This document shows positions 65 through 56,978 of a stretch of DNA of 64,000 nucleotides, one piece after another. The DNA is taken from positions 1,546,146 to 1,610,145 of the forward strand of contig NZ_KB889963.1 of assembly GCF_000372845.1 (NCBI RefSeq). The letters are read 5' to 3'. A program made the translations under genes and the position numbers. A model generated the notes under the pieces. The model had not been told where the DNA came from. It worked only from the letters and a program-made list of their open reading frames with translations, and did no database searches. Each line of letters begins with the position of its first letter. The stretch's first letter is position 1. This stretch comes from Methylocystis rosea SV97. Lineage in GTDB: Bacteria > Pseudomonadota > Alphaproteobacteria > Rhizobiales > Beijerinckiaceae.

Positions 65-1813
65 CTACCAATAGACCTGCGCGCGCGCTTCAAAGAGATC
101 GGGATGGGCGCCGTTGAAATAAGGGCCTTGCCGCGTCGGAACGCCGGTTGTGAACAAGGCGTAATCATTGAGCGGCGCAGAGGCTTGCAGCACATGGACC
201 CAGTTGAACTGAAAGTGGATTCCATTGTCAGGATACCAATTGAGTCCCAGAGTGACGTTTTGCTGGCGACCGCCGACAACGCCCGCGTTGCCGATATAAG
301 ACGCGGCCGCGGGATTGGGCGCGATGAGCGTCGTATAGGCGAGCATGTTGTACAGGCTTGAGCCGCTATAGGGTCCGCTGTTGAGATTGAGCGCGCTGTA
401 GCGCGCGGCGAGCCCAACCGCGCCGAAGCCGCCCGCGCTCATCGGATGCTTGATCGTGATCTGATTGAAGTTCGCGCCGATTTTGTTCGTCACGTCATAT
501 GCGGCGGCGCGCTCCTCACCCGTCAGGTACAATTGTCCGTAGAGATAGAAGCCGCTGAAATAATGCGAGGCGCCGCCCGGCGCGAAAGCGCCCGCGAGGC
601 GCGCAAGCCCAATATTGGTCGTATTGCGATTGACTTGCTGCCCCAGATATTCCGCCTGCAGCGAGAACGGTCCATGCGCCGCGGACAACTCCACGCCGAA
701 GGACTGCACGCTGTTGACGCAATGCGCGGCGGCGGCGGCGCCCCATCCCGGCAGAGCGACGGTTCCGCAGGAGAGATCGGGCGTGCCGAGCAGCCCTTGA
801 TTGAGGATATAGGCTTCCGAGCGAATGCGGTTGCCGATCCGCAGCACGCGATCGTCGGATAATCCCGTGGCGCTGTTTGGCTGGTGATAGCGGCCCGAGA
901 CGCCGACATGCAGGAGATCATGCTCGGTCATGATCGGCGCGTAGGTCAATCGGCCGGTCAGATCGAAATATTGACCGCCGCCGGTTGGGACCCAACCGGC
1001 CCTCGCGGGAACACCGAACGACGGCGGCGCGCCGACTGTGGGATTTGTGTTTAAATCTTCGAAGCTCGTCGTGAAGATGCCGCCTTTTGCCGTCCAGTTG
1101 TCGCCATAGGCGCCGATCGCCGCGCCGAGATGGCGGCTGGGCGCGATGGCTTCGACCGCCATGGCGCGTTCGATGAAGTCCCGGAATCGCGAAGAAGCGG
1201 TGAATTCGAGGCTGAAGGGTTCGAAATAGCTGCCGATATGGATGAACGCTGGCTCCTTCGTGAAGGGCAGCGCGAGAAGGGGATGTTGTACGCCAAGATA
1301 GAAATCGCGAATGCCGCCTTGCACGGGCGCGTTGAATGGCGTGCCATATTGCGAGCCGGCGAAATCATATTGCAGTTTGTAGAACCAATATTTGGCAGCC
1401 TTCCCCTCGACTTCGAGACGCACCTGGCGAACGCCAGCCTGGCCTGACCAGCCATTCAGCGGCTGCGCCGCGCCGCCGCCGTCGAACTGCATGCGCCCGC
1501 CAATCTTGAAGTTGTAAGATTTGTCTGCGTTTTCGACGAACAGACCGTTCTTGAATGCGACGAAAACTGGCGGCATAAGCGGCGTAGCGGTCTGCGCCGC
1601 CTCGGCCTTCGCGGCGCTTCGTTGAGCGGACTGGGAAGCCTGCTGGGCTTCCTCTTTGGCCTGACGAGCCTCTCGCCGCAGTTTTGCGATCTCCGCCTCC
1701 AGCGCTCGCAGCCTCGCCTCAATCACGTCGCTTGAGGCGGCATGCGCCGTCGTTGTCGAGAGAACCGCGACAAGTCCGCTTGCCGCGACATGCTTCCAGC
1801 CTGGGAGATTCAT
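65..1813 (-). CDS. outer-membrane porin (phosphate-selective porin O/P-like)
   Basis: A secreted beta-barrel porin of about 582 residues. It has an N-terminal signal peptide ending near AHA-AS, then a short alanine/glutamate-rich coiled coil (roughly residues 30-75, with repeated EAEIAKLRREA-like heptads), then a long region of alternating strands such as FKIGGRMQFDGG and YWFYKLQYDFAG. It ends in an aromatic residue (VYW), as outer-membrane barrels do. The coiled coil followed by a barrel fits OprO/OprP-type porins. An upstream ATG at 1837 is in frame, but the ATG at 1813 has a GAGG ribosome-binding site and starts directly at the signal peptide, so I prefer it. The gene lies 235-260 bp downstream of the hydrogenase-4-like operon on the same strand and could be its last gene or separately expressed. 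Substrate is not predictable; anion uptake is only a family association. Confidence 0.8.
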   Translation of the reverse strand: MNLPGWKHVAASGLVAVLSTTTAHAASSDVIEARLRALEAEIAKLRREARQAKEEAQQASQSAQRSAAKAEAAQTATPLMPPVFVAFKNGLFVENADKSYNFKIGGRMQFDGGGAAQPLNGWSGQAGVRQVRLEVEGKAAKYWFYKLQYDFAGSQYGTPFNAPVQGGIRDFYLGVQHPLLALPFTKEPAFIHIGSYFEPFSLEFTASSRFRDFIERAMAVEAIAPSRHLGAAIGAYGDNWTAKGGIFTTSFEDLNTNPTVGAPPSFGVPARAGWVPTGGGQYFDLTGRLTYAPIMTEHDLLHVGVSGRYHQPNSATGLSDDRVLRIGNRIRSEAYILNQGLLGTPDLSCGTVALPGWGAAAAAHCVNSVQSFGVELSAAHGPFSLQAEYLGQQVNRNTTNIGLARLAGAFAPGGASHYFSGFYLYGQLYLTGEERAAAYDVTNKIGANFNQITIKHPMSAGGFGAVGLAARYSALNLNSGPYSGSSLYNMLAYTTLIAPNPAAASYIGNAGVVGGRQQNVTLGLNWYPDNGIHFQFNWVHVLQASAPLNDYALFTTGVPTRQGPYFNGAHPDLFEARAQVYW

Positions 1814-2071
1814 GACTAGCCTCGCTTGCGTCTTCATTCGCGTGGGCGGCGCGCGCTGCGCCGCGAATCAAGACAGCAAGTTCATCGCGTTGAACGCCGC
1901 GACTCGCATATGCGAAGCGCTAAGCACGCTTCCGTTCTAGCCAAGTTTTCGTACGTAGGTTTTTCCCGAGTTTTTCTCTTTGCGAGGAAATATTGCTCGC
2001 GCATTTCGAGAGTCGGGCGGCTGACAGAACGTCGCCACATTCGCGGGGCGAGGGGCCTTCGGCCGAGTCGT

Positions 2072-2587
2072 TCAGCTCATCGTTTCAACGAAGGCGATCA
2101 GCCCTTTGAGCAGCGTCGTCGGATCAGGCGGACAGCCGCGAATGTGAAGATCGACGGGAATGACTTTCGCGACGGCGCCCACGCATGCGTAGCTCTCGCA
2201 ATAGACGCCGCCGTCAAAGGCGCAGTCGCCGACGGCGATCACCCATTTTGGATCCGGCGTCGCCGCATAGGTTCGCTCAAGCGCTTCGCGCATGTTTTTC
2301 GTCACCGGTCCGGTGACGAGCAAGACGTCGGCGTGACGCGGCGACGCCACGAAGCGCATGCCAAATCTCTCGAGATCGTAATAGGCGTTGTTGAGCGCGT
2401 GGATCTCCAGCTCGCAGCCATTGCAGGAACCCGCGTCGACTTCGCGGATCGACAGACTGCGGCCCAGTTTCTGGCGGGCTGTTCGCCCCAGCGTGTAGCC
2501 AAGTTCGGCGATCGACGTCGGAGTTGGCGTGGGCGCCTGTTCGGTCAGAGCGCGCCGGAGCAGGCCCTGAAGCAAGAATTTCTGCAT
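2072..2587 (-). CDS. hyfI: NuoB/HyfI-like [4Fe-4S] small subunit of a complex I-related membrane complex
   Basis: A 171-residue homologue of complex I subunit NuoB and hydrogenase-4 subunit HyfI. It holds the proximal iron-sulfur cluster between the catalytic large subunit and the membrane arm. Four candidate cluster cysteines are present: CNGC (Cys55, Cys58), GDC (Cys122) and GCPPDP (Cys152), so electron transfer through one [4Fe-4S] cluster looks intact. It is the last gene of the SulP-hyfBCEFGI operon, starting 12 bp after hyfG. No ferredoxin-like HyfH/NuoI gene is beside it, so the usual next electron carrier is missing from the cluster. The family assignment is strong; the reaction is unknown because the partner large subunit lacks nickel ligands. 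Confidence 0.9.
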   Translation of the reverse strand: MQKFLLQGLLRRALTEQAPTPTPTSIAELGYTLGRTARQKLGRSLSIREVDAGSCNGCELEIHALNNAYYDLERFGMRFVASPRHADVLLVTGPVTKNMREALERTYAATPDPKWVIAVGDCAFDGGVYCESYACVGAVAKVIPVDLHIRGCPPDPTTLLKGLIAFVETMS

Positions 2588-2599
2588 CGTGCGCGCGTC

Positions 2600-4117
2600 C
2601 TAGAGATCATGCCCCGAGTAGGAGCAGTTGAAGGATTTGTTGCAGAGGGGGAAGTCGGCGACGATGTTGTCCTTGATCGCCGCTTCGAGCAGCGGCCATT
2701 GGAACCAGGACGGATCGCGCAAATGACAGCGCTGCACCACGCCGTCAGCGCGGATGCGCAGCCAGACAAATATATCGCCGCGGAAGCCTTCGACGAGCGC
2801 GGCGCCTTCGCGCGTCCAGTCTTCCGGCAGCGCCCAGGCGGCGATGATCGGTCCCTCCGGCATTTCGTCGAGAATCTGTCTGACGATTTTGAGGGAGGCT
2901 TTGATTTCGTCGAACCGGACCCAGACGCGCGCATCGACGTCGCCTTCCTTTGAGGCGCCGATCTCGAACGTCAGCTGCGGATAGGGGGCGTAACCGATCG
3001 CCTTGCGCGCGTCGAACTCCCGGCCCGAGGCGCGTCCAACATAGCCGCCGCATGCATATTGCGTCGCGAGCGCCTCACTGACGACGCCGGTTCCGACGGT
3101 CCGATCCTGCAGCGACGTCGTGTCGCCGAAGAGCGCGATGAACCGGGGAGTCATGAGCTCGATCCACTCGATCAGCGTGAAAAGCGCCGTGACGTTCTCT
3201 TGCGCCAGATCGACGACGACGCCGCCCGGCGCGATGCGATCCATCATCAGGCGGTGTCCGAAACAGCTCGCGGCCTCCCTCAAGATGCGTTCGCGGACGA
3301 TGCCGCATTGCGCATGCATCAATGCGAAGGCCGCGTCGTTACAGATGGCGCCGATATCGCCGAAGTGATTGGCGAGGCGTTCCAGTTCGGCCATCAGCGC
3401 GCGCAGATATGTCGCGCGCGGCGGAACATTGACGTCGAACGCCGCTTCGATCGCCTGCGAAAAGGCGAGGCTATAGGCGACCGTGCTGTCGCCGGACACG
3501 CGCGCCGCGAGACGCGCGGCGCGCTCGAACGAGGCGCCGGCCATCAGTTGATCGACGCCCTTGTGCACGAAGCCAAACCGCTCCTCAAGCCGCACGACGG
3601 TTTCGCCATTGGCCGAGAAGCGGAAGTGACCCGGCTCGATAATGCCGGCGTGCACGGGTCCGACCGGTATCTGGTGGAGCGGTTCGCCTTCTGCGGGAAG
3701 GAACGTGTAGCTGTCACTGGCGGAGTCGATCTTTTCGGGGTCGTTGCAAGGATGACGCACGCCCCAGCGGCCATGGTCGAGCCAGGGCCGGTCATCGGGC
3801 GGGTTTTCGGCCCTCAACCCATAAAGATCGCGGATAGCGCGCTCGAGCCTCGACGCCGGCGGATGCAATCGCCCGACGGATGGAAAGGAGCCTTCAGGGC
3901 ACTCCAATGTGATGATGCGCAGGCGCGGCTGCCGCTCTTCGAGCACCGCCATGTGAACGCTCGAAGGTTCGCCCCACAGGCTGAGGAGTTCGCGCTCGCC
4001 TCTCGCAAGACTTTCGGCGAAAGCGAGCCAACCAGCTCTGTCGACGATCTCACGCGGCCAAGGCAGGCACGTCGGCGGCGACGGCTGGGCCTCTATCTGT
4101 TTGCTGGCGAAGTTCAT
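2600..4117 (-). CDS. hyfG: HyfG/NuoCD-like large subunit lacking [NiFe] ligands
   Basis: A 505-residue fusion of a NuoC-like N-terminal domain (about residues 25-120) and a NuoD/hydrogenase large-subunit domain. The family hallmark EPGHFRF is at residues 161-167. Where [NiFe] hydrogenases carry the first Cys-x-x-Cys nickel motif (RVCGICG in HycE), this protein reads RVSGDST (206-212). The C-terminal end (LCNKSFNCSYSGHDL) has no DPCxxC motif. Nickel binding and hydrogen evolution are therefore not expected. This is the pattern of Ehr (energy-converting hydrogenase-related) complexes. The ATG at 4117 starts 17 bp after hyfF. The open frame continues upstream to 5242, but that part is a shadow of hyfF. 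The function of the pocket where Ni would sit is unknown. Confidence 0.88.
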   Translation of the reverse strand: MNFASKQIEAQPSPPTCLPWPREIVDRAGWLAFAESLARGERELLSLWGEPSSVHMAVLEERQPRLRIITLECPEGSFPSVGRLHPPASRLERAIRDLYGLRAENPPDDRPWLDHGRWGVRHPCNDPEKIDSASDSYTFLPAEGEPLHQIPVGPVHAGIIEPGHFRFSANGETVVRLEERFGFVHKGVDQLMAGASFERAARLAARVSGDSTVAYSLAFSQAIEAAFDVNVPPRATYLRALMAELERLANHFGDIGAICNDAAFALMHAQCGIVRERILREAASCFGHRLMMDRIAPGGVVVDLAQENVTALFTLIEWIELMTPRFIALFGDTTSLQDRTVGTGVVSEALATQYACGGYVGRASGREFDARKAIGYAPYPQLTFEIGASKEGDVDARVWVRFDEIKASLKIVRQILDEMPEGPIIAAWALPEDWTREGAALVEGFRGDIFVWLRIRADGVVQRCHLRDPSWFQWPLLEAAIKDNIVADFPLCNKSFNCSYSGHDL

Positions 4118-4134
4118 CTTTTCATCCTTTGAAC

Positions 4135-5583
4135 TCAACCCAAGAGCCGCGCGACGTTCTGGAACCAGGTCACGACGTGAGAGGGAAGGTAGATTCCCGC
4201 CAGCAGCACAAGCGAGAGATGCGCGTAGACAGGCCACATCGAAGCCTTCACCTCGCCTTGGTCGCGGCTCGGCTCGCCGAACGCCATTCCGGTGAGGCGC
4301 AACAGCAGCGCGCCAAAGGCCAGCAGGAGGCCGAAGACCAGTGGAATAGCGAGGAGGGGCTGGCGCGCGAAGGTCGAACTCACGACGAGAAATTCGCTCA
4401 TGAAGATGCCAAGCGGCGGCAGACCGATGATGGCGACGACGCCAGCGACGAGGGACCAGCCGAGCGCCGGCTGGCTCTGCGTCAGTCCTCGGATGTCGGC
4501 GATTCTCTGCGTGCCCTTGACCTGCGCGATGTGACCGACCGAGAAGAAGATCGCGGACTTCGTCAGGCTGTGCATCGTCATGTGCAGCAGACCGGCGAAG
4601 TTGGCGAGCGGTCCGCCCATGCCAAAGGCGAAGGCGATAATGCCCATGTGCTCGATGGAGGAGTAGGCGAACAGCCGCTTGATGTCGCCGCGGCGGTAAA
4701 GCATGAAGGCCGCCATGATGAGCGATGCAAGGCCGAGCGTGATCATCAGCGGGCCAGGCGTAATCGCCGCCGCATTCGCCGTCAGCAGCATCTTGAACCG
4801 CAGTACCGCATAGAGCGCGACATTCAGAAGGAGGCCGGACAAGACCGCCGAGATCGGCGTCGGGCCTTCCGCATGCGCATCCGGAAGCCAGGCGTGCATC
4901 GGCGCCAACCCAACCTTGGTGCCGTAGCCGAGCATCAGAAACACGAAGGCGACGTTGAGCATCCGGGGATTGAACTGCGGCGCTTGCTGCATCAGCGTCG
5001 TCCAGACCATGGCGTCGTAGCCCTGTCCCAGAACCGGCTCGGCCGCCATGTAAATGAGGATCGTGCCAAAGAGCGCCAGCGCGATCCCGACGCTGCCGAG
5101 GATGAAATATTTCCAGGCGGCCTCGAGCGCGTGTGGCGTGCGGTACATGCCGACCATCAATACGGTCGTCAGGGTCGCGACTTCGACCGCGACCCACATG
5201 AGGCCGATGTTGCTGGCGAGCAGCGCCAGATTCATCGCGCACATCAGCGACTGATACATCGCGTGATAGAAGCGGACGTTTCTCGTGGTCAGCCGGCCGG
5301 TTTCGATCTCATGGTCGATATAGCTCGCGCTATAGACGCTCGTGGTGAAGCCGATGAAGGTCGAGAGCACAATAAAGACGATGTTGAGGTCGTCGACGAA
5401 GAGATAGCCGCCGCGTTCGGGTTCGACGACGAGAAGCACAAGCGCGAAGAGAAACGTCGCGCCGGAGGCGCAGAGGTTGATGATCGCCGAGCGTCGGTAG
5501 GCCGGTTCAAGCGCCACGGCGATGGCCGCGACGGCGGGAATGCCGACAAGCGCGTTCGAGACCAGGAAGAGATCGGAACTCAT
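4135..5583 (-). CDS. hyfF: hydrogenase-4 component F-like antiporter-type membrane subunit
   Basis: A 482-residue polytopic membrane protein of the NuoL/M/N-Mrp antiporter family, related to HyfF. Long hydrophobic segments cover nearly the whole sequence. It carries the conserved features WVAVEVATL near the fourth helix, GYGTKVGLAPMHAWLPDAHAEGP (the central helix with its proton-path lysine) and SIEHMGIIAFAFGMGG. These helices conduct protons or sodium ions in complex I relatives. Its start overlaps the hyfE stop by 4 bp (ATGA), so the two are translationally coupled. It is somewhat shorter than E. coli HyfF (about 526 residues). It would be one of two ion-pumping modules in this complex, the other being HyfB. 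Confidence 0.9.
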   Translation of the reverse strand: MSSDLFLVSNALVGIPAVAAIAVALEPAYRRSAIINLCASGATFLFALVLLVVEPERGGYLFVDDLNIVFIVLSTFIGFTTSVYSASYIDHEIETGRLTTRNVRFYHAMYQSLMCAMNLALLASNIGLMWVAVEVATLTTVLMVGMYRTPHALEAAWKYFILGSVGIALALFGTILIYMAAEPVLGQGYDAMVWTTLMQQAPQFNPRMLNVAFVFLMLGYGTKVGLAPMHAWLPDAHAEGPTPISAVLSGLLLNVALYAVLRFKMLLTANAAAITPGPLMITLGLASLIMAAFMLYRRGDIKRLFAYSSIEHMGIIAFAFGMGGPLANFAGLLHMTMHSLTKSAIFFSVGHIAQVKGTQRIADIRGLTQSQPALGWSLVAGVVAIIGLPPLGIFMSEFLVVSSTFARQPLLAIPLVFGLLLAFGALLLRLTGMAFGEPSRDQGEVKASMWPVYAHLSLVLLAGIYLPSHVVTWFQNVARLLG

Positions 5584-6242
5584 GAACGTCCTCCGCGTAC
5601 GCGATCGAGTTCAGAAAGGTCGACGTTGTCGAATCGCTCGCGGATGCGAAACAGGAAGATGCCGATCACGATGAAGGCGATGAGAATGGAAAAGGCGACG
5701 CTGATCTCGACGACGAGCGGCATGCCGTTCGCCCCTGCCGCCGCCAGAACCAGACCATTTTCCAGCGACATGAAACCGATAATCTGGCTCACGACGTTGC
5801 GTCGCGTCACCATCATCAACAGCCCCAGCAGCACGATCGCCAAGGCGAATGCGATGTCCTCGCGCGACAGCGGATCGGCGGAGGCGGTCGCCGGCAGCAT
5901 GACGACGAGCGACAGCGCCACAAGAAATATGCCGATGAGCATGGTTATGCCGACGCCGCCAACGACCTCCACGGTGCGGTGGATGCGCAAGCGCTTGATG
6001 ATGCGGCGAAGGCTGAACGGAATGATCAGCGCCTTGAAGATCGCCGCGATGGCAGCCGTGAGATAGAGATGATGTGCGTCCTGGTAATAGGCCTGCCAGG
6101 CGACCGACAGCGACAGAATGACGGCGTGGAGCGTGTAGATATTGATCAGCCCCGACAGTCTGTCCTGATACAGCAGCATGAAGCTCGTCAGCAGGAGCGC
6201 GCCCGCCAGCACATGGGCGATGTCGATTGTCAGAAGCTCCAT
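5580..6242 (-). CDS. hyfE: hydrogenase-4 component E-like membrane subunit
   Basis: A 220-residue integral membrane protein matching HyfE in length and layout. The C-terminal half resembles NuoK: a helix pair with a buried acidic residue, FMSLENGLVLAAAGANGMP, followed by VEISVAFSILIAFIVIGIFLFRIRE. The N-terminal half adds further helices, as in HyfE. It belongs to the membrane arm that connects the ion-translocating modules. Its ATG overlaps the hyfC stop by one base and its own stop overlaps the hyfF start, so hyfC-E-F are tightly coupled. Confidence 0.88.
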   Translation of the reverse strand: MELLTIDIAHVLAGALLLTSFMLLYQDRLSGLINIYTLHAVILSLSVAWQAYYQDAHHLYLTAAIAAIFKALIIPFSLRRIIKRLRIHRTVEVVGGVGITMLIGIFLVALSLVVMLPATASADPLSREDIAFALAIVLLGLLMMVTRRNVVSQIIGFMSLENGLVLAAAGANGMPLVVEISVAFSILIAFIVIGIFLFRIRERFDNVDLSELDRVRGGRS

Positions 6243-7195
6243 CAGAGGCTCCGTGTCACGAAAACGAGCAGCGTCGCGAGGAGGCCGAGCATCAGCCCCG
6301 CGCCGAGAAAGTCGGGCACGCGGAAGATGCGCATCTTGGCCGTGGATGTCTCAAATAGCGCGAGCGCGCCGCCGCCGATCGCCAGCTTGAGGACGTAAGC
6401 GCCAAGGCCGATCGCCATCGCCCTTGGGCCCGCGTCATGCGTCGCGAGGCCAACTGGGAAGAAGACGCAGGCGATGAGCGAGAGATAAAGGAGCAGTTTG
6501 AGCGCGGAGGCGAGTTCAATGAGCGCGAGATAGCGCCCGGAATACTCAAGAATCATCGCCTCATGCACCATCGTCAGCTCGAGATGCGTCGCCGGATTGT
6601 CGACAGGAATCCGTCCATTCTCCGCGATGGCGACGATGAGGAGCGCAACGAGCGCCATGCCGACGGAGGCGCGCAATTCCATATTCGCGACCATGTAGGC
6701 CGCAATTTCAGAGAGCTGCGTCGTTCCGGCGACGAAGGAGACGGTGAAGACGATCATCATCATCGCCGGCTCCGCGAGCGAGCCGAACATCGCCTCGCGG
6801 CTGGAGCCGATGCCGCCGAAACTTGTTCCAATGTCCATGCCGGCGAGAGCAAGGAAAAAGCGGGCGCTGCCGAGCAGGGCGATGATGGCGATGAGATCGG
6901 CCGACCAGCTGAACGTCAGTCCCGTGGCGAATGTCGGCACGAGCGATGCGGCGACCCAGATCATCGCAAAGATCAGATAGGGCGCCGCGCGATATAGCCA
7001 GGACGCGTTGTCTGCGAGGACGACCTCCTTGCGCAGCAGCCGAATGAGATCGAGCCAGGGTTGAATGATCGGCGGTCCTTTGCGGCGCAAGAGACGCGCC
7101 TTCAGCTTTCGAACAAAGCCGATGAGCAGCGGCGCGAGCGCAAGCACCAAAAGCATTTGGAGGCTCTGGGCCATAAGGTTGAAAAGAAGCGTCAT
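6242..7195 (-). CDS. hyfC: hydrogenase-4 component C / NuoH-like membrane anchor subunit
   Basis: A 317-residue membrane protein of the NuoH/HyfC family, which docks the soluble arm onto the membrane. Visible family features are RRKGPPIIQPWLDLIRLLRKE near residue 40, AMFGSLAEPAMMM in the middle, and the acidic-rich loop ENGRIPVDNPATHLELTMVHEAM near residue 200 that contacts NuoB/NuoD in complex I. The true start is the ATG at 7195, which overlaps the hyfB stop by 4 bp; the open frame upstream of it is a shadow of hyfB. Length and motifs are normal for the family. Confidence 0.9.
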   Translation of the reverse strand: MTLLFNLMAQSLQMLLVLALAPLLIGFVRKLKARLLRRKGPPIIQPWLDLIRLLRKEVVLADNASWLYRAAPYLIFAMIWVAASLVPTFATGLTFSWSADLIAIIALLGSARFFLALAGMDIGTSFGGIGSSREAMFGSLAEPAMMMIVFTVSFVAGTTQLSEIAAYMVANMELRASVGMALVALLIVAIAENGRIPVDNPATHLELTMVHEAMILEYSGRYLALIELASALKLLLYLSLIACVFFPVGLATHDAGPRAMAIGLGAYVLKLAIGGGALALFETSTAKMRIFRVPDFLGAGLMLGLLATLLVFVTRSL

Positions 7196-9189
7196 ATCGC
7201 CACCAGAACCAGGAGGAAGACGAGCGCCGCGAAGACCAGCGCGAGATATTCCTGGATCGTCAGGAGACTGAGAATGTTCAGCCCGGCGGCGCAAGATTCC
7301 ACCGCCCGCGTGAGCGGCGCGTAGAGGTAATCGAAGATTCGATCCTTGACGTCGACGCTCAAGCGCGCGGCCCGCGTATCGCCAGGCGCCGGCATGTCGA
7401 GGCGCTCCCGCACCGAAAAGGCGATGACGCCAAGAGTGCGCCGGATCGGCTGCGCGAAGCTGCTGCCGGTGTATTGCGTCATGGGACTGGTTTCGATGTA
7501 GCCGCAGTCCCAGGCCGGCGCGCGCCGCGACCGCGCCGTGCCGAATTTGTGGATGACCCATCTCGCCGAATAGGCGGAGAAGAGAATGAACGCGAAGACC
7601 AGAAGCCCATTGTAGGAGCTGCGGCTTTCGGCCACGGGCGCGATCGAGAGCCAGGAGAGTTCAGCCTGCGTAGGCATGCGGCCGCCGACAAAATCTTTCG
7701 CCACGGGCGAGATCGTGTCGATGACGAGGCTCGGCAGCAGACCGGCCGTGAGGCACAGCGTCAGCAAAACCGCCATGGTCGCGAGCGACCAGCGATCCGG
7801 GTCGTGCGCCGCGCGCGCCGCTTCGCTGCGGGGACGTCCCAGAAAGGCGACGCCATAAGCGCGTATGTAACAGCCGGCGCCGAGCGCCGCGCTCAGCGCC
7901 AGCGCCACGCCGACCGCCGGAACGAGGAGCTTCACGGTCCATTGCGGCAGCGCCGGGCTCAGCAGGATCGCCTGAAAGACCAGCCATTCCGAGACGAAGC
8001 CGTTCAGCGGCGGCAGGGCGGCGATGGCGACGCACCCGCCCAGAAAAAGGAACGCCGTTTTCGGCATGGAGTGAATGAGCCCGCCGAGCCGCTCGATGCT
8101 TCTTTCGCCGCTCGCGTTCAGCACCGCGCCGGCGCCAAAGAACAGCAGGCTCTTGAACAGCGAATGATTGAAAACGTGAAACAGCGCGGCTGTGAAGGCG
8201 AGGGCGGCCGGCAGCGCCATGCCATTGGCCTTGAACGCCAAGGCAAGTCCGAGCGCGATGAAAATGACGCCGATGTTTTCGATGGTGCTGTAGGCGAGCA
8301 GCTTCTTCAGATCGCTCTGAATCGTCGCGAAGAGAACGCCGATGAGCGCGCTCGCTGCGCCAAAGGTCATCGGCTCGACCGACCACCAGAACGCCGGCGG
8401 CCCGAGCAAATCGAACACGACGCGAATGAAGCCGTAGACGGCGACCTTCGTCATAACGCCGCTCATCAGGGCCGAGACATGGCTCGGCGCCGCCGGATGG
8501 GCGAGTGGCAGCCAGATATGCAGGGGCGCGAGTCCGGCTTTCGACCCCATACCGACTATCGCGAGGGCGAGGACAAGGCCCGAGGTCCAGCCCGCCCTAG
8601 TCGACTCGCGAATCGAGGCGAAGTCATAGGCGCCGCCGACGCCCCCGAGAACGCCAAACGCCATCAACAGCGCGAAACCGCCGAAGCTCGCCATCAACAA
8701 ATAGACGAAGCCGGCGCGCCTGTTCTCTTCCTCATGATGATGCGTCAGCACGAGCGCCCATGACGCAAGCGACATGAACTCCCAAGCGACAAGAAAGGTG
8801 AAGGCGTCGTCGGCCAGCACGACGAGATTCATGCCAGCGAGAAAAGCCGGATAGAACGGCAGCACGCGTATCGGCTCTTTCTCATGCGCGCCATAGCCGA
8901 TCGCATAGGCGCTTGCCGCCGCGCCCCCCAGATTGACGACCGCGAGAAAAAAGGCGGTCAGGACGTCGATGCGAAAATGCATGCCGATCCACGGCAGCCC
9001 GAGCGGCAAAGTCGTGGAAACGACATGAGCGCCCCTTGGCATGACCGCTGCGAGAAAGATGACGCCGCAGAGGCCGATGCACAGGCGGTAGACGTTACGG
9101 CTGACGTCATGGTTCCGCCTGTCGACGATGGCGTAAACGCTGACGGCGAGCAGGGCGCTGACAGAGGTCAGCGCCAGGTAGAGCGGCAT
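7192..9189 (-). CDS. hyfB: hydrogenase-4 component B-like antiporter-type membrane subunit
   Basis: A 665-residue NuoL-like protein with about 16 hydrophobic segments, the usual length for HyfB (about 670). Diagnostic stretches are VAWEFMSLASWALV (conserved glutamate of the antiporter family), GMGSKAGLAPLHIWLPLAHP (the central lysine helix) and STIENIGVIFIALG. The C-terminal extension is typical of HyfB. A GTG at 9198 is in frame, but the ATG at 9189 has AGGTGA five bases upstream, so I choose the ATG. It begins 60 bp after the SulP gene with no visible terminator between them, which suggests one transcript. Confidence 0.9.
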   Translation of the reverse strand: MPLYLALTSVSALLAVSVYAIVDRRNHDVSRNVYRLCIGLCGVIFLAAVMPRGAHVVSTTLPLGLPWIGMHFRIDVLTAFFLAVVNLGGAAASAYAIGYGAHEKEPIRVLPFYPAFLAGMNLVVLADDAFTFLVAWEFMSLASWALVLTHHHEEENRRAGFVYLLMASFGGFALLMAFGVLGGVGGAYDFASIRESTRAGWTSGLVLALAIVGMGSKAGLAPLHIWLPLAHPAAPSHVSALMSGVMTKVAVYGFIRVVFDLLGPPAFWWSVEPMTFGAASALIGVLFATIQSDLKKLLAYSTIENIGVIFIALGLALAFKANGMALPAALAFTAALFHVFNHSLFKSLLFFGAGAVLNASGERSIERLGGLIHSMPKTAFLFLGGCVAIAALPPLNGFVSEWLVFQAILLSPALPQWTVKLLVPAVGVALALSAALGAGCYIRAYGVAFLGRPRSEAARAAHDPDRWSLATMAVLLTLCLTAGLLPSLVIDTISPVAKDFVGGRMPTQAELSWLSIAPVAESRSSYNGLLVFAFILFSAYSARWVIHKFGTARSRRAPAWDCGYIETSPMTQYTGSSFAQPIRRTLGVIAFSVRERLDMPAPGDTRAARLSVDVKDRIFDYLYAPLTRAVESCAAGLNILSLLTIQEYLALVFAALVFLLVLVAI

Positions 9190-9249
9190 ACGTGTCACCT
9201 TTGAATCGACGCGACGGTCGTCGGTCGCGCCTTGCGTGAACTTTACGGA

Positions 9250-11070
9250 CTAGACGCTGCGCTTGCGCGGGGCGAGGGGATGCTTTGACGTTGCGACGTG
9301 TTGATCCAGTCCGCAAATCTCTGCGTGGCCGCCGTTTGCTTCATAGTCCTCGCAAAAGTGATGGAGGTTCTCCATCACCGTATGATCGACGCACCAGGAC
9401 TCCGAGAGGTCGAAGATCACCGTCTTGCCCTTTGGGAGCTTCGCGAGATCGCCCTTGAGCGCGAGGTAATTGGCGAAAAACGCGGCGCCGCCGATCTTGA
9501 CCTGATAAACGCCGGGTTCGCTCTCCACGACGTCACGATGCAACTTGAAGACCTGCCCCCAATTGACGCTGCGCCAGAAGTGAAACAGGAACTCGGCGGC
9601 GATGCCGATGGCGACGCCGATCAAGAGATCGGTCGCCAGCACGCCGATGATGGTAATCACGAAAACGGTGAGCTGGTCCCAGCCGATCGCCAGCGTCTTC
9701 TTGAACTCGAGCGGCGACGCAAGTCGATAACCGGTGAACACCAGCAGCGCCGCGAGCGAGGCAAGCGGGATCTCATGAATGACCCTCGGGAAAAGCGCGA
9801 CGAAGATCAGCAGGAACAACCCGTGGAAGAAATTCGCCCACCCCGTGCGCGCGCCGTTATTCACATTGGCGGAGCTGCGAACGATTTCTGCGATCATCGG
9901 CAGACCGCCAATCAGACCGCAGATGATGTTGCCGAAGCCGACGGCCGCGACGTCGCGGTTGAGATCCGAGGTGCGCTTATAGGGATCGAGCTTATCGACC
10001 GCCGCCGCGCTGAGCAGGCTCTCCAGGCTGCCAACAAGACAGATGGCGAAGACCTGCTGCCAGAACATGCCGGAGCCGATCAGCGAGAAATCCGGGAAGG
10101 CGAAGCCGGACAGGAAGTTCTGCGGAATCGAGACAAGGAATTTCGGACCGATCGTGAATTCGTGATGCGGCAGGAACGGCGTGTCGGGCAGGAAGAGATA
10201 GATATGTTCATCGTCGAGATCGTAATATTGCGCGAGCGCCATGCCGATGATGACGACGACGAGCGGCGCGGGGATCATTTTTAGGCGGCGACTCTTCACC
10301 AGCGACCAGGCGATCAGGATCAAAAGCCCAATGCCGCCGATCATGGCGACTTCGGGATTCATGTCGCGAAGGCTGGCGGGGATCGCGCCAATCGTCTCAA
10401 ACAGCGTCTGCGCATCGGGCTTCACGCCGAGCATGACGTGAATCTGCTTGGCCATAATGATGATGCCGATCGCCGCCAACATGCCATGCACGGCCGAGGA
10501 CGGAAAAAAGGCGCTCATCTTGCCGGCTTTCATGATGCCCATCAGCATCTGAATGACGCTGGCGCAGACGATCGCCGCCAAGGTGTAGTGATAGCCGGCT
10601 TTGGCGTCGCCGCCGCCGAGCGCCTGCACCGAGTCCAGAATGACCACGATGAGGCCCGCCGCCGGGCCGGTGATGGTGACGAAGGAGCCATTGATTCGTG
10701 ACACCAGCAGTCCGCCGACGACGGCGGTGATGATGCCCGCCTGCGGCGGAAAGCCCGACGCCATCGAAATGCCAAGGCAGAGCGGCAGCGCGATAAGAAA
10801 GACCAGAAAGCCGGACAGAACGTCCGCGCGCCAATTTTGAGCCAATCCGGCGAGGCCGGTCTTCGGCGTGAACCTTGTTGGAAGCGTCCCTCGTGAATGA
10901 TTGTCGTCCACGGCGATGTGACTGGTTCCTGTCGCGCCGGCCAAAATTCCGTCTGATCCGCCTAAGCCCAGCCATCCGTCCTGCGCCGACGATCCGGCGC
11001 GCTGAGAGGCGTTCGCGTCTGCCGCGGTCGCTTCGAGGTCTTGGGTGACAGCCTGAGCCTTACTTTTCAT
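9250..11070 (-). CDS. SulP-family anion transporter with C-terminal STAS domain
   Basis: A 606-residue SLC26/SulP transporter. Residues 1-75 are a polar cytoplasmic tail. About residues 80-480 form the transmembrane core, with family motifs FLIALPLCLGISMASGFPP, SSAVHGMLAAIGI and GLIGGLPMIAEIVRSSANVNNGART. The last 110 residues form a STAS domain (VIFDLSESWCVDHTVMENL). SulP proteins carry sulfate, bicarbonate or other anions; the protein alone does not say which. Being first in an operon with six complex I-like subunits suggests its anion matters to that complex, and bicarbonate is a reasonable guess. The ATG is preceded by AAGGACA. The promoter lies in the 275-bp gap shared with the divergent response regulator. 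Confidence 0.88.
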   Translation of the reverse strand: MKSKAQAVTQDLEATAADANASQRAGSSAQDGWLGLGGSDGILAGATGTSHIAVDDNHSRGTLPTRFTPKTGLAGLAQNWRADVLSGFLVFLIALPLCLGISMASGFPPQAGIITAVVGGLLVSRINGSFVTITGPAAGLIVVILDSVQALGGGDAKAGYHYTLAAIVCASVIQMLMGIMKAGKMSAFFPSSAVHGMLAAIGIIIMAKQIHVMLGVKPDAQTLFETIGAIPASLRDMNPEVAMIGGIGLLILIAWSLVKSRRLKMIPAPLVVVIIGMALAQYYDLDDEHIYLFLPDTPFLPHHEFTIGPKFLVSIPQNFLSGFAFPDFSLIGSGMFWQQVFAICLVGSLESLLSAAAVDKLDPYKRTSDLNRDVAAVGFGNIICGLIGGLPMIAEIVRSSANVNNGARTGWANFFHGLFLLIFVALFPRVIHEIPLASLAALLVFTGYRLASPLEFKKTLAIGWDQLTVFVITIIGVLATDLLIGVAIGIAAEFLFHFWRSVNWGQVFKLHRDVVESEPGVYQVKIGGAAFFANYLALKGDLAKLPKGKTVIFDLSESWCVDHTVMENLHHFCEDYEANGGHAEICGLDQHVATSKHPLAPRKRSV

Positions 11071-11345: not shown

Positions 11346-12071
11346 TTGACCCCTCCCATTTCAATTCTGATCGTCGAGGATGACGCCGAAATCGGCGAGT
11401 TCATCTCGCTCTATCTCGCGGCGCACGATATTCAGGCTAAGGTGGCCGCAAACGCCCAGGCAATGGACGCTGCGTTCAGCGCCGGAGCCTATGACCTGCT
11501 GATCCTCGACCTTAATCTTCCCGGCGAAGACGGCTTGTCGATCTGCCGGCGGGTGCGATCCGAGAGACGCATCCCCATAATCATACTGACGGCGCAGTCG
11601 GAGGACATCGACAAAATATTGGGTCTGGAGCTCGGGGCCGACGATTACATCGTCAAGCCTTTCAATTCGCGCGAGCTGCTGGCGCGTATCCGCGCCGTTT
11701 TGAGGCGAACTGAAACCCCGAACGCGAACGCCGTCGACGGGCGCGCTGTACGGCAAGCGTATCTTTTCTCGGGCTGGCGTGTGGATGTGCTGGCGCGGGA
11801 GGTCGTCGCGCCGTGCGGCATAAAAGTGGCCATGACGGGCGCCGAATTCGATCTGTTGCATGCCTTGTGCGAAAATCCCAACCGGGTGTTGACGCGCGAG
11901 CAACTGATCAACATGACGCATGGCCCGACGACCGGGCCCTTTGAGCGGAGCATTGATGTGCTGATCAGCCGGCTTCGACAGAAGATAGAAGCGGATCCAA
12001 AAAAGCCCGCGTTCATCCAGACGGTTCGCTCCGAGGGCTATATTTTCTCCACTCACGTGGCGCGCGCATGA
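11346..12071 (+). CDS. OmpR-family two-component response regulator
   Basis: A 241-residue regulator with an N-terminal receiver domain and a C-terminal winged-helix DNA-binding domain. The acidic pair is Asp12/Asp13 in VEDD, the phospho-acceptor is Asp55 (LLILDLNLPGEDG) and the conserved lysine is Lys104 (YIVKPF). The DNA-binding part contains LTREQLINMTHG and RSIDVLISRLRQKIE. No ATG precedes the receiver; TTG at 11346 is the most plausible start, because an in-frame TGA lies at 11316 and the receiver begins almost at once. It overlaps the histidine kinase by 4 bp (ATGA). It is divergent from the SulP-hyf operon and may control it. Confidence 0.88.
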   Translation: MTPPISILIVEDDAEIGEFISLYLAAHDIQAKVAANAQAMDAAFSAGAYDLLILDLNLPGEDGLSICRRVRSERRIPIIILTAQSEDIDKILGLELGADDYIVKPFNSRELLARIRAVLRRTETPNANAVDGRAVRQAYLFSGWRVDVLAREVVAPCGIKVAMTGAEFDLLHALCENPNRVLTREQLINMTHGPTTGPFERSIDVLISRLRQKIEADPKKPAFIQTVRSEGYIFSTHVARA

Positions 12072-13504
12072 ACTCAACTCGCGTTCCCTGGCGTTTCCGG
12101 CTCAACAAGCTGGCCGTGCAAATCACGCTGCTCATGCTTGTGTCCATCGTCGCATTCCAAACCATCGTGATCGGCATGTTCCATGTGTTCGGCCGGCGGC
12201 ACATTGTCGATCAGGGCGATTTCATCGCGAGCATAATCCTCGCTCTGGACGTCGCGCCGAATGCAGAGAGAGCGAATATCGTTTCAGAGCTTTCTCTTGC
12301 CGTTCCCTACGCCAATATCGAGATCCAGGAGACTCGCCCAGCAGCGGCGGACGCCTCGTTGGGAAGCGACGTGGCCTTCGATAACGAGATCCGTCACATC
12401 GATTCGCTTTTGTGGAAAGGCGCGGACGTGTTCAAGGTTGCCAGCTCGGCGCCAGGGGACTACGGCGTTCTCGCCGTCGAATTGCGCAAGGGCGGCTACG
12501 CGACCATCTCGATCGCGCAGCATCAAAAGTCGCCTGGCTCAATCTGGCGGTGGCTCTGGCAGCACGCGGAGGACGAACCGATCATCGTCACTCCGGGAGC
12601 GCGAACGGCGCTATCTTTCATCATATTCACCGCGATCTTCGTCTTCTGGGCGCTGAACGCGATCATGGCGCCGCTGCAGCGACTCGCGAAATACGCCGAG
12701 CAGATTCCGAATGACATCGATACGAAGACGCCGCTTCCCGAACGAGGTCCCCACGAGGTGCGCGAATTGACCCGCTCGCTCAATCGTATGCAGGCGCGCA
12801 TCAGCAAGATGATCGCCGCGCGCGCCCATGTGCTTGCGGCGGTGAGTCATGACTTGCGAACAATTATCACGCGCCTGAAGCTAAAAACGGAGTTCGTGCC
12901 AGATCAAAGCCTTCAGCAGCGGATGATGCGCGACGTCGATCTGATGGACGCAATGCTGTTCAAGAATCTGCAGTATTTGCGCGCTGAAGGAGACGACAAG
13001 TCCGACTGTTCCCTGGTCGATCTCGACAGCGTTCTGCAAACTGTCGCTGACGAGTTCTGCGACCTCGGGCATCATGTCACCTACCATGGCGATGGTCACC
13101 AAATGGTCTTCGGATCGCTTTGCGACGTGCAGCGCATTTTCACCAATCTCGTCGAAAACGCGACGCATCACGCGAAGACCGTGGATATCTACATCGCGGA
13201 GGGCCCGGGAGGGCTCATCGAGGTCGACGTCGTCGACGACGGACCGGGAATGTCAGCGGAGGGCAAGAACACTGCATTTGAGCCCTTCGTTCGCGGCCAG
13301 CCGGGACGAACGCTTGACGAGCACAGCGGATTTGGACTCGGCCTATCGATTGTGCGCTCGCTCGTCGAGAACCATGGCGGATCCGTGTCGCTGCTCGATC
13401 GAGAGCCCAACGGGCTGATCGCGCGTGTCTGTCTGCCCCGCGCGGTCGAAGGAGACGAAAAGCTGTTTCCGACGGACTCCAAGGCGGCGCCGGCACTCTT
13501 CTGA
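12068..13504 (+). CDS. membrane sensor histidine kinase (EnvZ-like)
   Basis: A 478-residue kinase partner of the preceding regulator. There are two transmembrane helices (about residues 16-40 and 180-200) around a periplasmic sensor domain of about 140 residues. A HAMP linker follows, then the H-box AAVSHDLRT with phospho-accepting His261. The catalytic domain has the N-box NLVENATHH, the G1 box DDGPGM and the G2 box GFGLGLS. The periplasmic part has no motif I recognise, so the signal is unknown. The ATG overlaps the regulator stop codon, so the pair is translated together. Confidence 0.88.
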   Translation: MNSTRVPWRFRLNKLAVQITLLMLVSIVAFQTIVIGMFHVFGRRHIVDQGDFIASIILALDVAPNAERANIVSELSLAVPYANIEIQETRPAAADASLGSDVAFDNEIRHIDSLLWKGADVFKVASSAPGDYGVLAVELRKGGYATISIAQHQKSPGSIWRWLWQHAEDEPIIVTPGARTALSFIIFTAIFVFWALNAIMAPLQRLAKYAEQIPNDIDTKTPLPERGPHEVRELTRSLNRMQARISKMIAARAHVLAAVSHDLRTIITRLKLKTEFVPDQSLQQRMMRDVDLMDAMLFKNLQYLRAEGDDKSDCSLVDLDSVLQTVADEFCDLGHHVTYHGDGHQMVFGSLCDVQRIFTNLVENATHHAKTVDIYIAEGPGGLIEVDVVDDGPGMSAEGKNTAFEPFVRGQPGRTLDEHSGFGLGLSIVRSLVENHGGSVSLLDREPNGLIARVCLPRAVEGDEKLFPTDSKAAPALF

Positions 13505-13567: not shown

Positions 13568-13990
13568 TCATGCGGGTGCAAGCAGCAGGCTCGTCTCGCT
13601 TCGAGCGATCCCCTCGATCATCCTCACGCCCGACAGCACCCGATCGAATTCCTCGAGATTGGCGCACTCGATCTCCGCGATGAGGTCGAAAGGCCCGTTG
13701 GTGCTGTAAAGCGTGTGGATCTGCGGGAGCCCGCGCAGCGCCTGAGCGACGCGACGGGAATTCTTGCCGGAGACTTCGACCATCATGATCGCCCGGATGC
13801 GATCGGATGCGGCGGGATTTTTCAGCCGAACCGTAAAGCCCAGGATCACGTCGGACGCGATGAGCTTGTCGAGTCGGTTCTGGACCGTCCCGCGCGAGAC
13901 GCCGAGCGCCTTGGCGAGCTGGGATAATGAAGCGCGCGCGTCGGTTCGCAGCAGCGCGATCAGTCGGTGGTCGAGATCGTCCATGCCCAT
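13568..13990 (-). CDS. Lrp/AsnC-family transcriptional regulator
   Basis: A 140-residue protein with an N-terminal AsnC-type helix-turn-helix (LDHRLIALLRTDARASLSQLAKALGVSRGTVQNRLDKL) and a C-terminal ligand-binding RAM/ACT-like domain (about residues 65-140). It is divergent from ornithine cyclodeaminase with a 126-bp gap. Lrp-type regulators of amino-acid catabolism are very often arranged this way, so it probably senses an amino acid such as arginine or ornithine and controls the adjacent pathway. The gap holds candidate operator repeats. Confidence 0.88.
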   Translation of the reverse strand: MGMDDLDHRLIALLRTDARASLSQLAKALGVSRGTVQNRLDKLIASDVILGFTVRLKNPAASDRIRAIMMVEVSGKNSRRVAQALRGLPQIHTLYSTNGPFDLIAEIECANLEEFDRVLSGVRMIEGIARSETSLLLAPA

Positions 13991-13995
13991 ATCTC

Positions 13996-14050
13996 TGTCG
14001 AAACAGTCAATATCTATGACCGAAATGACAGATTTCGAGCCGTTTCGACA
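13996..14050. promoter_or_regulatory. candidate Lrp operator between the regulator and ornithine cyclodeaminase
   Basis: The gap contains a 9-bp perfect inverted repeat, TGTCGAAAC (13996-14004) and GTTTCGACA (14042-14050). Inside it is a second one, CGAAAT-GACAG-ATTTCG (14021-14037). The CGAAA/TTTCG half-sites start at 13999, 14021, 14033 and 14043, close to whole helical turns apart. Lrp-family proteins bind such phased partial palindromes. The position between divergent genes supports an operator, but binding is inferred. Confidence 0.45.
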
Positions 14051-14116
14051 ATTTATGGCGATTTTGATTAGCGGCGCCGCGTTCTAGTCTCCTGACAGGG
14101 ATCGATTGGAGAAGGC

Positions 14117-15184
14117 ATGGTGACGTTTCTGAGCGCGCGAGATGTCGCCCGCATCGTTGGAGAAGTGGGCGCGCGGCGCTTTTGGTTGCTGCTCGTCGAC
14201 TATCTGCGTCACGATTTTATGCGCTGGGACGCGTTCGAGAAGTCGCCGCGTTACGCGAGCCATTCGCCGCGCGGCGTCATTGAACTGATGCCGACGAGCG
14301 ACGGCGAGGCTTTCGCCTTTAAATACGTCAACGGTCATCCCGGCAACACGCACTTCAACCTGCAGACCGTCGTCGCCTTCGGCGCGCTCGCCGACGTCGA
14401 AACCGGCTATCCGACGCTTATCGCCGACATGACGCTCGCCACCGCCTTTCGCACCGGCGCCACTTCGGCGCTGGCGGCGGCGCATCTCGCGCGGCCCGAC
14501 AGCAAGACGATGGCGCTGATCGGCCTTGGCGCCCAATCGGAGTTTCAGGCATGCGCCTTTCACGCCGTTCTTGGCGTTGACCGGCTTCGCGTCTTCGATG
14601 TCGATCCTGACGCCGTCGAGAAGTTCGAGCGCAACATGGCCGACTTCGGCCTGACGATCATTCGGTGCGCCGACGCGCGCAGCGCCGCATCCGGCGCAGA
14701 TATCATCACGACGATCACGGCGGATAAGAAATGCGCCACGATATTGGCCGACGACATGGTTGGGCCTGGAACCCATATCAACGCGGTCGGCGGCGATTGT
14801 CCCGGCAAGACCGAACTTGCGCGCGACCTGCTGCTGCGCTCTGAAATATTCGTCGAATATGCGCCGCAGACGCGCAGCGAGGGCGAAATTCAGCAACTCG
14901 GCCCGGAGCATCCGTTGACGGAACTGCGTGAGATTCTGGCTGGTCATCGACCAGGGCGCACCTCCAAAGACGCAATCACCATCTTCGACAGCGTCGGTTT
15001 CGCCATCGAGGATTTTTCGGTGTTGCGCCTATTGCGCGATCTTGCGCGGGAGACGGGGGTCGGCCGCACGATCGAGCTGATCGCTGAGCCGGCAGACCCC
15101 AAGGATCTGTTCTCCCTGCTGCATCCGCTCGACGCGGAACAGGAAAACGACGCAACTCTCGTAAGGACGGAACAGCCCGCATGA
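14117..15184 (+). CDS. ocd: ornithine cyclodeaminase
   Basis: A 355-residue member of the ornithine cyclodeaminase/mu-crystallin family, which converts ornithine to proline and ammonia using bound NAD. Visible features are the substrate-side stretch FAFKYVNGHPGNTHFNLQTV, the Rossmann start MALIGLGAQSEFQ (about residue 135), TITADKK, and GPGTHINAVGGDCPGKTEL with the conserved aspartate. The length is normal. GGAG precedes the ATG. The 3' end overlaps the next gene by 4 bp, so ornithine cyclodeaminase and the arginine-handling enzyme are made together. Confidence 0.9.
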   Translation: MVTFLSARDVARIVGEVGARRFWLLLVDYLRHDFMRWDAFEKSPRYASHSPRGVIELMPTSDGEAFAFKYVNGHPGNTHFNLQTVVAFGALADVETGYPTLIADMTLATAFRTGATSALAAAHLARPDSKTMALIGLGAQSEFQACAFHAVLGVDRLRVFDVDPDAVEKFERNMADFGLTIIRCADARSAASGADIITTITADKKCATILADDMVGPGTHINAVGGDCPGKTELARDLLLRSEIFVEYAPQTRSEGEIQQLGPEHPLTELREILAGHRPGRTSKDAITIFDSVGFAIEDFSVLRLLRDLARETGVGRTIELIAEPADPKDLFSLLHPLDAEQENDATLVRTEQPA

Positions 15185-56918: not shown

Positions 56919-56978
56919 CCGCTCGCGCCCGGACGCATCTGGGAGTATGCTGCCGGCCTCCCAACAGACAGGCGCCGC

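Follow-up and report, generated by a model that had tools for sequence, protein, structure and literature searches.

A SulP anion transporter gene joined to a nickel-free, Hyq-type relative of hydrogenase-4 in one clade of Methylocystis

The stretch of DNA analysed here (the window) comprises 64,000 nucleotides of Methylocystis rosea SV97 (contig NZ_KB889963.1, positions 1,546,146 to 1,610,145), whose genome of 3.91 Mb is in two contigs, C1 and C2. On the minus strand of the window, a SulP anion transporter gene heads a presumed operon with six genes of a hydrogenase-4-like complex. All seven frames, in the order SulP-hyfB-C-E-F-G-I, are open from 11070 to 2072. The first gene (9250..11070) encodes an SLC26-type SulP transporter of 606 residues (PF00916, E=1.9e-59). 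It is followed by hyfB (7192..9198, 668 residues), a NuoL-like antiporter-type subunit scoring 827 bits with the hydrogenase 4 subunit B model NF005086 (cut-off 667), and by hyfC (6242..7195, 317 residues), a NuoH-like membrane subunit (PF00146). The hyfE gene (5580..6242, 220 residues) is assigned as hydrogenase-4 component E or NuoK-like membrane subunit by its place in the conserved gene order, its family matches being below cut-off (NF008556, 91 bits against 136; PF00420, 24.4 bits against 26.1). A second NuoL/M-like subunit is encoded by hyfF (4135..5583, 482 residues; NF005043, 839 bits, cut-off 533). The fused NuoC/NuoD-like large subunit HyfG (2600..4132, 510 residues; PF00346 and alignment with HycE) has no nickel ligands, and the NuoB-like small subunit HyfI (2072..2587, 171 residues; PF01058) has one [4Fe-4S] site. 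The starts of hyfC and hyfG are chosen internal ATG codons, and the mechanical open frames extend farther upstream. SulP and hyfB are 51 bp apart, the largest gap; the pairs B/C, C/E and E/F overlap by 4, 1 and 4 bp, and hyfF/hyfG and hyfG/hyfI are separated by 2 and 12 bp. The one-directional run with short gaps noticed in the preliminary description of this DNA is therefore borne out.

HyfG differs from a nickel-binding large subunit at every nickel ligand. It reads RVSGDST where E. coli HycE reads RVCGICG and NKSFNCSYSG where HycE reads GSLDPCYSC, and the four nickel-cysteine positions are occupied by Ser, Ser, Ser and Gly. Conservation was followed in an alignment of 135 HyfG rows, the farthest about 40% identical, after rows below 100 bits or below 80% of the length had been dropped. 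Cysteine is present at the nickel positions 213, 216, 504 and 507 in 1, 1, 0 and 0 of these rows (at 213 only in locus L172, at 216 only in L166). The loss of both nickel Cys pairs, claimed earlier from the letters alone, is thus confirmed by the HycE alignment and by the conservation pattern, and HyfG lacks the two Ni-Fe-binding CxxC pairs that mark [NiFe] group 4 hydrogenases and hydrogenase-4. Residues D215, K499, S500, N502, G507 and D509 are present in all 135 rows (related rows were not down-weighted), S213 and G214 are kept in 133 and S216 in 127, which gives the new signature RxSGD + NKSFNxSYxGxD; hardly any variation is seen in the loop GPVHAGIIEPGHFRF. C264, C497 and C503 are found in 127, 114 and 125 rows and are not strictly invariant. 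Chance is excluded because the 135 sequences, so divergent at the far end, sit in gene clusters of the same order. The six invariant residues and the conserved loop suggest that the old nickel site was not merely lost; judged from its sequence, it appears to have become a different, strongly conserved polar site. The AlphaFold2 monomer of HyfG matches HycE (7z0s_E) best, with a template modelling (TM) score of 0.83, and its predicted local distance difference test score is below 50 at residues 146-191 and 494-510, the stretches that hold much of the pocket.

The other subunits retain most of the expected residues. C55, C58, C122 and C152 of HyfI are present in 133 of 133 rows. The usual charged residues of HyfB, E140, K220, K251 and E404, are kept in 119 to 121 of 121 rows. 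HyfF carries Asn254 where NuoM, MbhH and MbsH carry Lys, and Asn is found there in 129 of 130 rows. The idea that the Fe-S cluster and both antiporter modules are intact thus stands for the HyfI cysteines and for HyfB and does not stand for HyfF. A loop of HyfC is very conserved among the aligned rows. The closest solved chains to HyfB and HyfC belong to formate hydrogenlyase (FHL), 7z0s_C and 7z0s_D (FHL subunit 4), respectively. HyfB, HyfF, HyfC and HyfE are the predicted membrane ion-translocation modules. No HyfA/HyfH-like, formate dehydrogenase or FdhA, or NuoE/F-like gene is found in the operon.

A complex of this kind is already known. On plasmid pRL11 of R. johnstonii 3841, a helix-turn-helix (XRE) regulator gene is followed by hyfB-C-E-F-G-I in the same order, and the HyqG of this strain is 60.8% identical to the Methylocystis HyfG over 99% of the length; its Cys residues include those at 259, 491 and 497, and CxxC is absent. 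The hyqRBCEFGI genes of Azorhizobium caulinodans were named endo-hydrogenase in 2009 and studied in 2012 (PMC2650096, PMC3357923, PMC2930871). The 2012 authors describe HyqG as lacking both CxxC motifs, call three of its Cys completely conserved in eight genera, and count R. leguminosarum and Beijerinckia indica among the owners of hyq (PMC3357923). Since HyqG without CxxC is published, the nickel-free complex is already in print. The present locus is therefore best classified, on predicted protein features, as a Hyq-type relative of hydrogenase-4 that resembles the energy-converting hydrogenase-related (Ehr) complexes. The Ehr assignment made at the outset is supported by the lost nickel ligands and the antiporter-like subunits, and Hyq-type is the more exact term.

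The link with SulP is confined to one group of relatives. One scan gave 533 places encoding HyfG relatives, and 80 of these loci were fetched. This SulP is directly upstream of hyfB in 14 of them, all in a Methylocystis clade; a different SulP is found at two, a remnant at one and none at 63, some of which lie on cut contigs. No SulP is present at any of 39 listed hyf loci. In the phylum sample, hyfG is found in 62 of 398 genomes (in each genome, scoring covered the three or four best candidates of a first look, and absences there are less sure); 30 of the 62 belong to one family, f38, probably Mariprofundaceae to judge by the names of the closest proteins. Only two of the 62, both Methylocystis, have this SulP beside hyf. 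The 14 fetched loci, the host locus and those of genomes G017 and G114 make 17 clade loci, and in all 17, each with its upstream side visible, SulP is directly upstream of hyfB. The proposed coupling of SulP to hyf thus holds within the Methylocystis clade and not in general; on the neighbourhood check suggested with it, SulP is rarely next to such hyf clusters in relatives (14/80 loci, 2/62 genomes). No description of SulP beside hyf or hyq was noticed among the literature matches listed, which cover mainly work outside subscription journals.

In the HyfG tree, built from 65 rows chosen from the 135, the SulP-bearing loci form one clade of 18 rows with support of 99 in the SH-like approximate likelihood ratio test (SH-aLRT). 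The 18th row, L021, is a contig that starts inside hyfE, with its upstream side out of view. HyfG identity to the host copy falls to about 67% within this clade. In the SulP tree, for which 13 of 120 database proteins were chosen and partial SulPs left out, the 15 full-length hyf-adjacent rows are in one clade (97/91), and the sister clade (98/93) comprises three stand-alone Methylocystis SulPs and four database proteins. The simplest reading of these trees is that a duplicated SulP would have joined hyf once and stayed. The neighbours of the three stand-alone sisters, which include genes for short-chain dehydrogenase, chemotaxis and S-adenosylhomocysteinase, are barely informative.

The SulP gene takes the place of a regulator. 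Outside the clade, 85 of 104 loci carry an XRE-type regulator upstream of hyfB, as do 5 of 5 sister-clade loci; none of the 17 SulP-clade loci does, and in two of these the visible upstream stretch is about 600 bp only. Four loci with a contig end within 500 bp of hyfB were left out of this count, and the 104 include L191, which lacks a full hyf set. At the host locus, no XRE match is seen within 3 kb upstream of hyfB. At three of the 85 loci (L114, L115 and L176), the XRE-like regulator is on the opposite strand. The unit described earlier reaches past its two ends. Divergent from SulP on the plus strand are an OmpR-like response regulator (11346..12071; 234 bits with OmpR model NF007005, below the cut-off of 331) and an EnvZ-like sensor histidine kinase (12068..13504; 170 bits with EnvZ model NF007004, below the cut-off of 415). 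Among 15 clade loci with this side in view, 14 have the response regulator and 13 the kinase. On the other side, 3' of hyfI, lies an optional member, a porin of the porin O/P family (65..1837, minus strand; PF07396), which was matched in 11 of 17 clade loci; L006 and L007 carry another gene of about 590 residues there. Of the 17 clade loci, only the 10 closest carry an Lrp gene. The SulP linkage is constant while the flanks (Lrp gene, porin and, in L123, response regulator) change. With a two-component system mostly standing in for the XRE regulator, the presumed SulP operon is a new variant specific to this clade. Beyond the two-component system, an Lrp-type regulator confined to the closest relatives, an ornithine cyclodeaminase and a DDAH-family hydrolase occupy 13568-16137. 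Farther away in the window, a 628-residue open frame at 55875-57761 (minus strand) has no Pfam match at 1e-5.

Other SulP genes near hyf are of different kinds. In the Competibacteraceae loci L071 and L072, a different SulP is just downstream of hyfI, a place taken by a NUDIX gene in L073 of that family; this pairing was not counted as support for a wider SulP-hyf link. The SulP of L071 (11472-13808) starts 48 bp after the hyf operon and is DauA-type (746 bits, cut-off 614), possibly a second, independent SulP-hyf link. Likewise not counted was L191, a 6.3 kb contig in a metagenome-assembled genome (MAG) of family f38, with a SulP of 56% identity and, after it, a HyfB-like frame that matches from residue 75. 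Its G+C content is 0.35, compared with 0.43 at the hyf locus of that MAG, and this SulP is present in 0 of 73 other f38 genomes (E<=1e-60), suggesting that the contig may be misbinned.

We tentatively favour the reading, possible and close to probable, that the complex is a nickel-free, H+-translocating Hyq oxidoreductase and that SulP is an H+-coupled anion symporter made together with it, the two sharing regulation and no protein complex. HyfBCEFGI would be the six-subunit core common to complex I and group 4 hydrogenases, without nickel. Its proposed reaction is reversible: electrons would pass between the quinone pool and a low-potential carrier in solution, a transfer coupled to H+ translocation. 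The carrier may be a ferredoxin or flavodoxin that docks directly on HyfI/HyfG, because no HyfH/NuoI-like subunit is encoded in the operon. In this way the complex could assist low-O2 cells, which are often diazotrophs, in keeping reductant and proton-motive force in balance. Within one Methylocystis clade, the usual XRE regulator would have given way to a duplicated SulP, mostly with an EnvZ/OmpR-like system; with SulP in the regulator's place, transporter and complex are presumably made together. SulP would spend proton-motive force, and the link between the two would be shared regulation of ion balance. The soluble carrier is the weakest step of this mechanism, and a ferredoxin:quinone reaction is something that we only infer.

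Several observations weigh against this combined reading. No electron donor or acceptor gene is recognised in the operon, nor a ferredoxin-docking subunit. In the alignment, HyfG lacks the Tyr of complex I Nqo4 (RMDY), which we take to be the residue meeting quinone. Five database proteins whose gene context is unchecked also fall in the hyf-adjacent SulP clade, and two of them (P0036 and P0063) are near-identical to hyf-adjacent rows. L123 has neither the response regulator nor the kinase, and L013 lacks the kinase. A Methylocystis MAG carries, downstream of hyf (L017:7900-10639), a SulP remnant of about 98 residues in two frames with a divergent response regulator; this hyf operon belongs to the SulP-less sister clade, and the same MAG also has a SulP-bearing hyf locus (L010). 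The remnant, on the far side of hyf, may point to an earlier SulP-hyf association. Nitrogen fixation is not a constant companion: 50 of the 62 hyf-bearing phylum-sample genomes are without nifD, and upstream of SulP there is no NifA or sigma-54 consensus site, sigma-54 patterns being not above control. Finally, H2 turnover is ascribed to the Azorhizobium complex in the literature (PMC2650096, PMC3357923).

The best surviving alternative, which we consider rather unlikely, is that SulP is a passenger: the EnvZ/OmpR-like system would govern SulP, and often the porin, and hyf would have ended up downstream through an old rearrangement, functionally unconnected. The sister clade of stand-alone Methylocystis SulPs fits this, as does the independent occurrence of the two parts, genome G057 having such a SulP without hyf and nif and genome G089 having hyf without such a SulP. 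However, SulP stays directly upstream of hyfB in every visible clade member while its neighbours come and go, and HyfG identity reaches down to about 67% within the clade.

The SulP protein has the features of its family, a PF00916 match over the cut-off and a carboxylate at the aligned coupling position. Its Glu aligns with Glu of SLC26Dg (5da0) and Asp of BicA (6ki1), a position that we take to be the coupling residue and that would fit cation-coupled symport. The nearest relatives are SulPs of Methylocystis and of gammaproteobacterial methanotrophs, a protein named for M. rosea being 99% identical. One relative of 57% identity, in Methylomagnum, is two genes behind amoABC-annotated genes. 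The preliminary description proposed that the complex powers bicarbonate uptake by SulP, ion- or redox-driven, concentrating carbon in a logic like that of NDH-1MS or DAB. This less likely reading, which we regard as improbable, gains something from the 117 bits that SulP scores with the BicA model NF050096, from the A. caldus hyfBCEFG cluster that adjoins a beta-carbonic anhydrase (PMC3826726), and from Mariprofundaceae, which carry the complex and of which M. ferrooxydans has a genome abstract naming CO2 fixation (PMC3179512). Yet this score falls far short of the cut-off of 880 and is also lower than the 187 bits obtained with the DauA model. The genome also has separate systems. A second SulP, 36-38% identical, lies 41 bp from a beta-carbonic anhydrase (C1:81876-84133, at C1:83.5 kb), and pairs of like arrangement are found in G017 and G114. 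A DabB-DabA pair is on C2:207150-211511 (PF00361/PF00662; PF10070, 933 bits) and includes the only DabA of the genome. Bicarbonate uptake by the operon is thus not supported, and the carbonic-anhydrase-SulP pair and DabAB are the likelier inorganic carbon systems. A scan by regular expression gave no carbonic anhydrase next to hyf; this candidate search was given no weight, a like pattern having missed three Pfam-confirmed ones.

Nitrogen fixation is a frequent setting of the complex. The host family comprises 119 genomes, with hyfG in 17 and HypD in 25. In this family, nifD is found in 12 of 17 hyf-bearing and 5 of 102 hyf-less genomes (Fisher p=3e-9, uncorrected for kinship), and in the phylum sample in 12 of 62 and 29 of 336, respectively (p=0.02, uncorrected for kinship). 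The strong link in the family and the weak one in the phylum make nitrogen fixation a frequent but not necessary setting. A helper of diazotrophy, in which SulP imports sulfate or molybdate for nitrogenase and Hyq serves the electron or energy needs of N2 fixation, seems to us doubtful at best. The family-level association and the presence of nifD in the host genome, G017 and G114 point toward it, as does a match of SulP to the molybdate transporter family PF16983 at 31 bits (cut-off 30). That match may presumably reflect cross-recognition of the SulP family, and 5 of the 17 hyf-bearing family genomes do without nifD. Nif-type control, sought through patterns for sigma-54 and NifA in the DNA upstream of SulP or HyfB, was rejected. 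The NifA box is found at 10 of 59 loci without SulP, at 0 of 18 with SulP, and in 3.5% of 1540 random stretches of mostly coding DNA. Some hyf loci elsewhere have unusual layouts. In the zetaproteobacterial operons L155, L156, L165 and L166, two tandem hyfB genes lie behind a gene of 184-190 residues, which occupies the place of an XRE-cupin regulator (the regulator was scanned in L154 and L158). A plasmid of Candidatus Methylocalor cossyra, a gammaproteobacterial methanotroph, has a six-gene hyf set between transposase genes (L203:8788-16574), and a Variovorax plasmid has two hyf-like gene sets in tandem (L204:1-15235).

The preliminary description found no hyp genes, which holds for the locus and not for the genome, which encodes HypD at C1:3.22 Mb and two [NiFe] large subunits at C1:2.09 Mb and 3.23 Mb. 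The one at 2.09 Mb is of the group 3b or sulfhydrogenase kind and the other lies about 8 kb from HypD, so that the host hyp genes have other clients. HypD (presence threshold E<=1e-40) is absent from 6 of the 17 hyf-bearing family genomes, all six at least 96% complete, in keeping with the favoured nickel-free reading. A truly H2-active endo-hydrogenase, as published for Azorhizobium, would have to use a nickel-independent site, and we think this quite unlikely. In A. caulinodans, deletion of hyq is described as raising H2 evolution 15-fold at 20 uM O2 and lowering it to 0.4-fold below 1 uM O2, and as slowing diazotrophic growth by about 20% (PMC2650096, PMC3357923). H2 is still recycled without the whole 20-gene hup/hyp operon, a result that also fits the favoured nickel-free reading, as does Rhodocista centenaria, which is reported to have hyq without hup/hyp (PMC2650096, PMC3357923, PMC2930871). 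HycE as the closest solved fold and the EPGHFRF loop kept in HyfG likewise speak for H2 activity. Against this, cysteine is almost never found at the four nickel positions, the authors themselves judge an Ni,Fe site uncertain, if not unlikely (PMC3357923), and the published Hyq sections report no activity of a purified complex (PMC2650096, PMC3357923). It is least probable of all that HyfG holds a new nickel-free redox site and the ion current of the complex directly powers SulP as a primary-energised anion uptake machine, one that, if true, would be built from hydrogenase-4 parts.

Complexes of the Hyq and Ehr kind occur widely in Proteobacteria and often carry a hydrogenase annotation; their reaction is not settled. 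In this clade the complex is tied to one transporter and, in most members, to one signalling system, a natural experiment that gives a new handle on its role: knowing which anion is carried, and which signal turns the operon on, would point toward its function. The invariant pocket residues and the hosts without HypD make it testable whether Hyq acts on H2 directly.

Compared with known systems, the SulP protein shares the PF00916 domain and the carboxylate at the aligned position with SLC26Dg, BicA and DauA, but scores below the cut-off of all three NCBIfam SulP models matched. The DabAB pump and the cyanobacterial NDH-1MS complexes use NuoL-type subunits for ion flow as well (PMC6981117), whereas the SulP-hyf operon has neither DabA (PF10070) nor a carbonic anhydrase module. 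E. coli formate hydrogenlyase (7z0s) is the closest solved relative of HyfB, HyfC and HyfG; the Methylocystis complex differs in having no nickel cysteines, HyfA/HyfH or formate dehydrogenase, and in its two antiporter-type subunits. Ehr complexes, as described, are group 4-like, with lost nickel ligands and antiporter-like subunits, and those of Riflemargulisbacteria and Saganbacteria have proposed FdhA and NuoE/F-like partners that the Methylocystis operon does not encode (PMC10284858, PMC6349859). With Hyq of A. caulinodans, the comparison was made by published description, the R. johnstonii 3841 copy being used for comparison of sequences. There, hyqR comes first and NifA/sigma-54 control has been shown, while here SulP and a divergent two-component system are found instead, with no XRE regulator and no such control signature upstream. 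The absent regulator-first arrangement is a regulatory and not a structural feature, and XRE is also missing from 19 of the 104 loci outside the clade. In structure the two are alike: the six genes B-C-E-F-G-I in the same order, the four cluster Cys of HyfI/HyqI, and three Cys of the large subunit, C264, C497 and C503 here and 258, 491 and 497 there.

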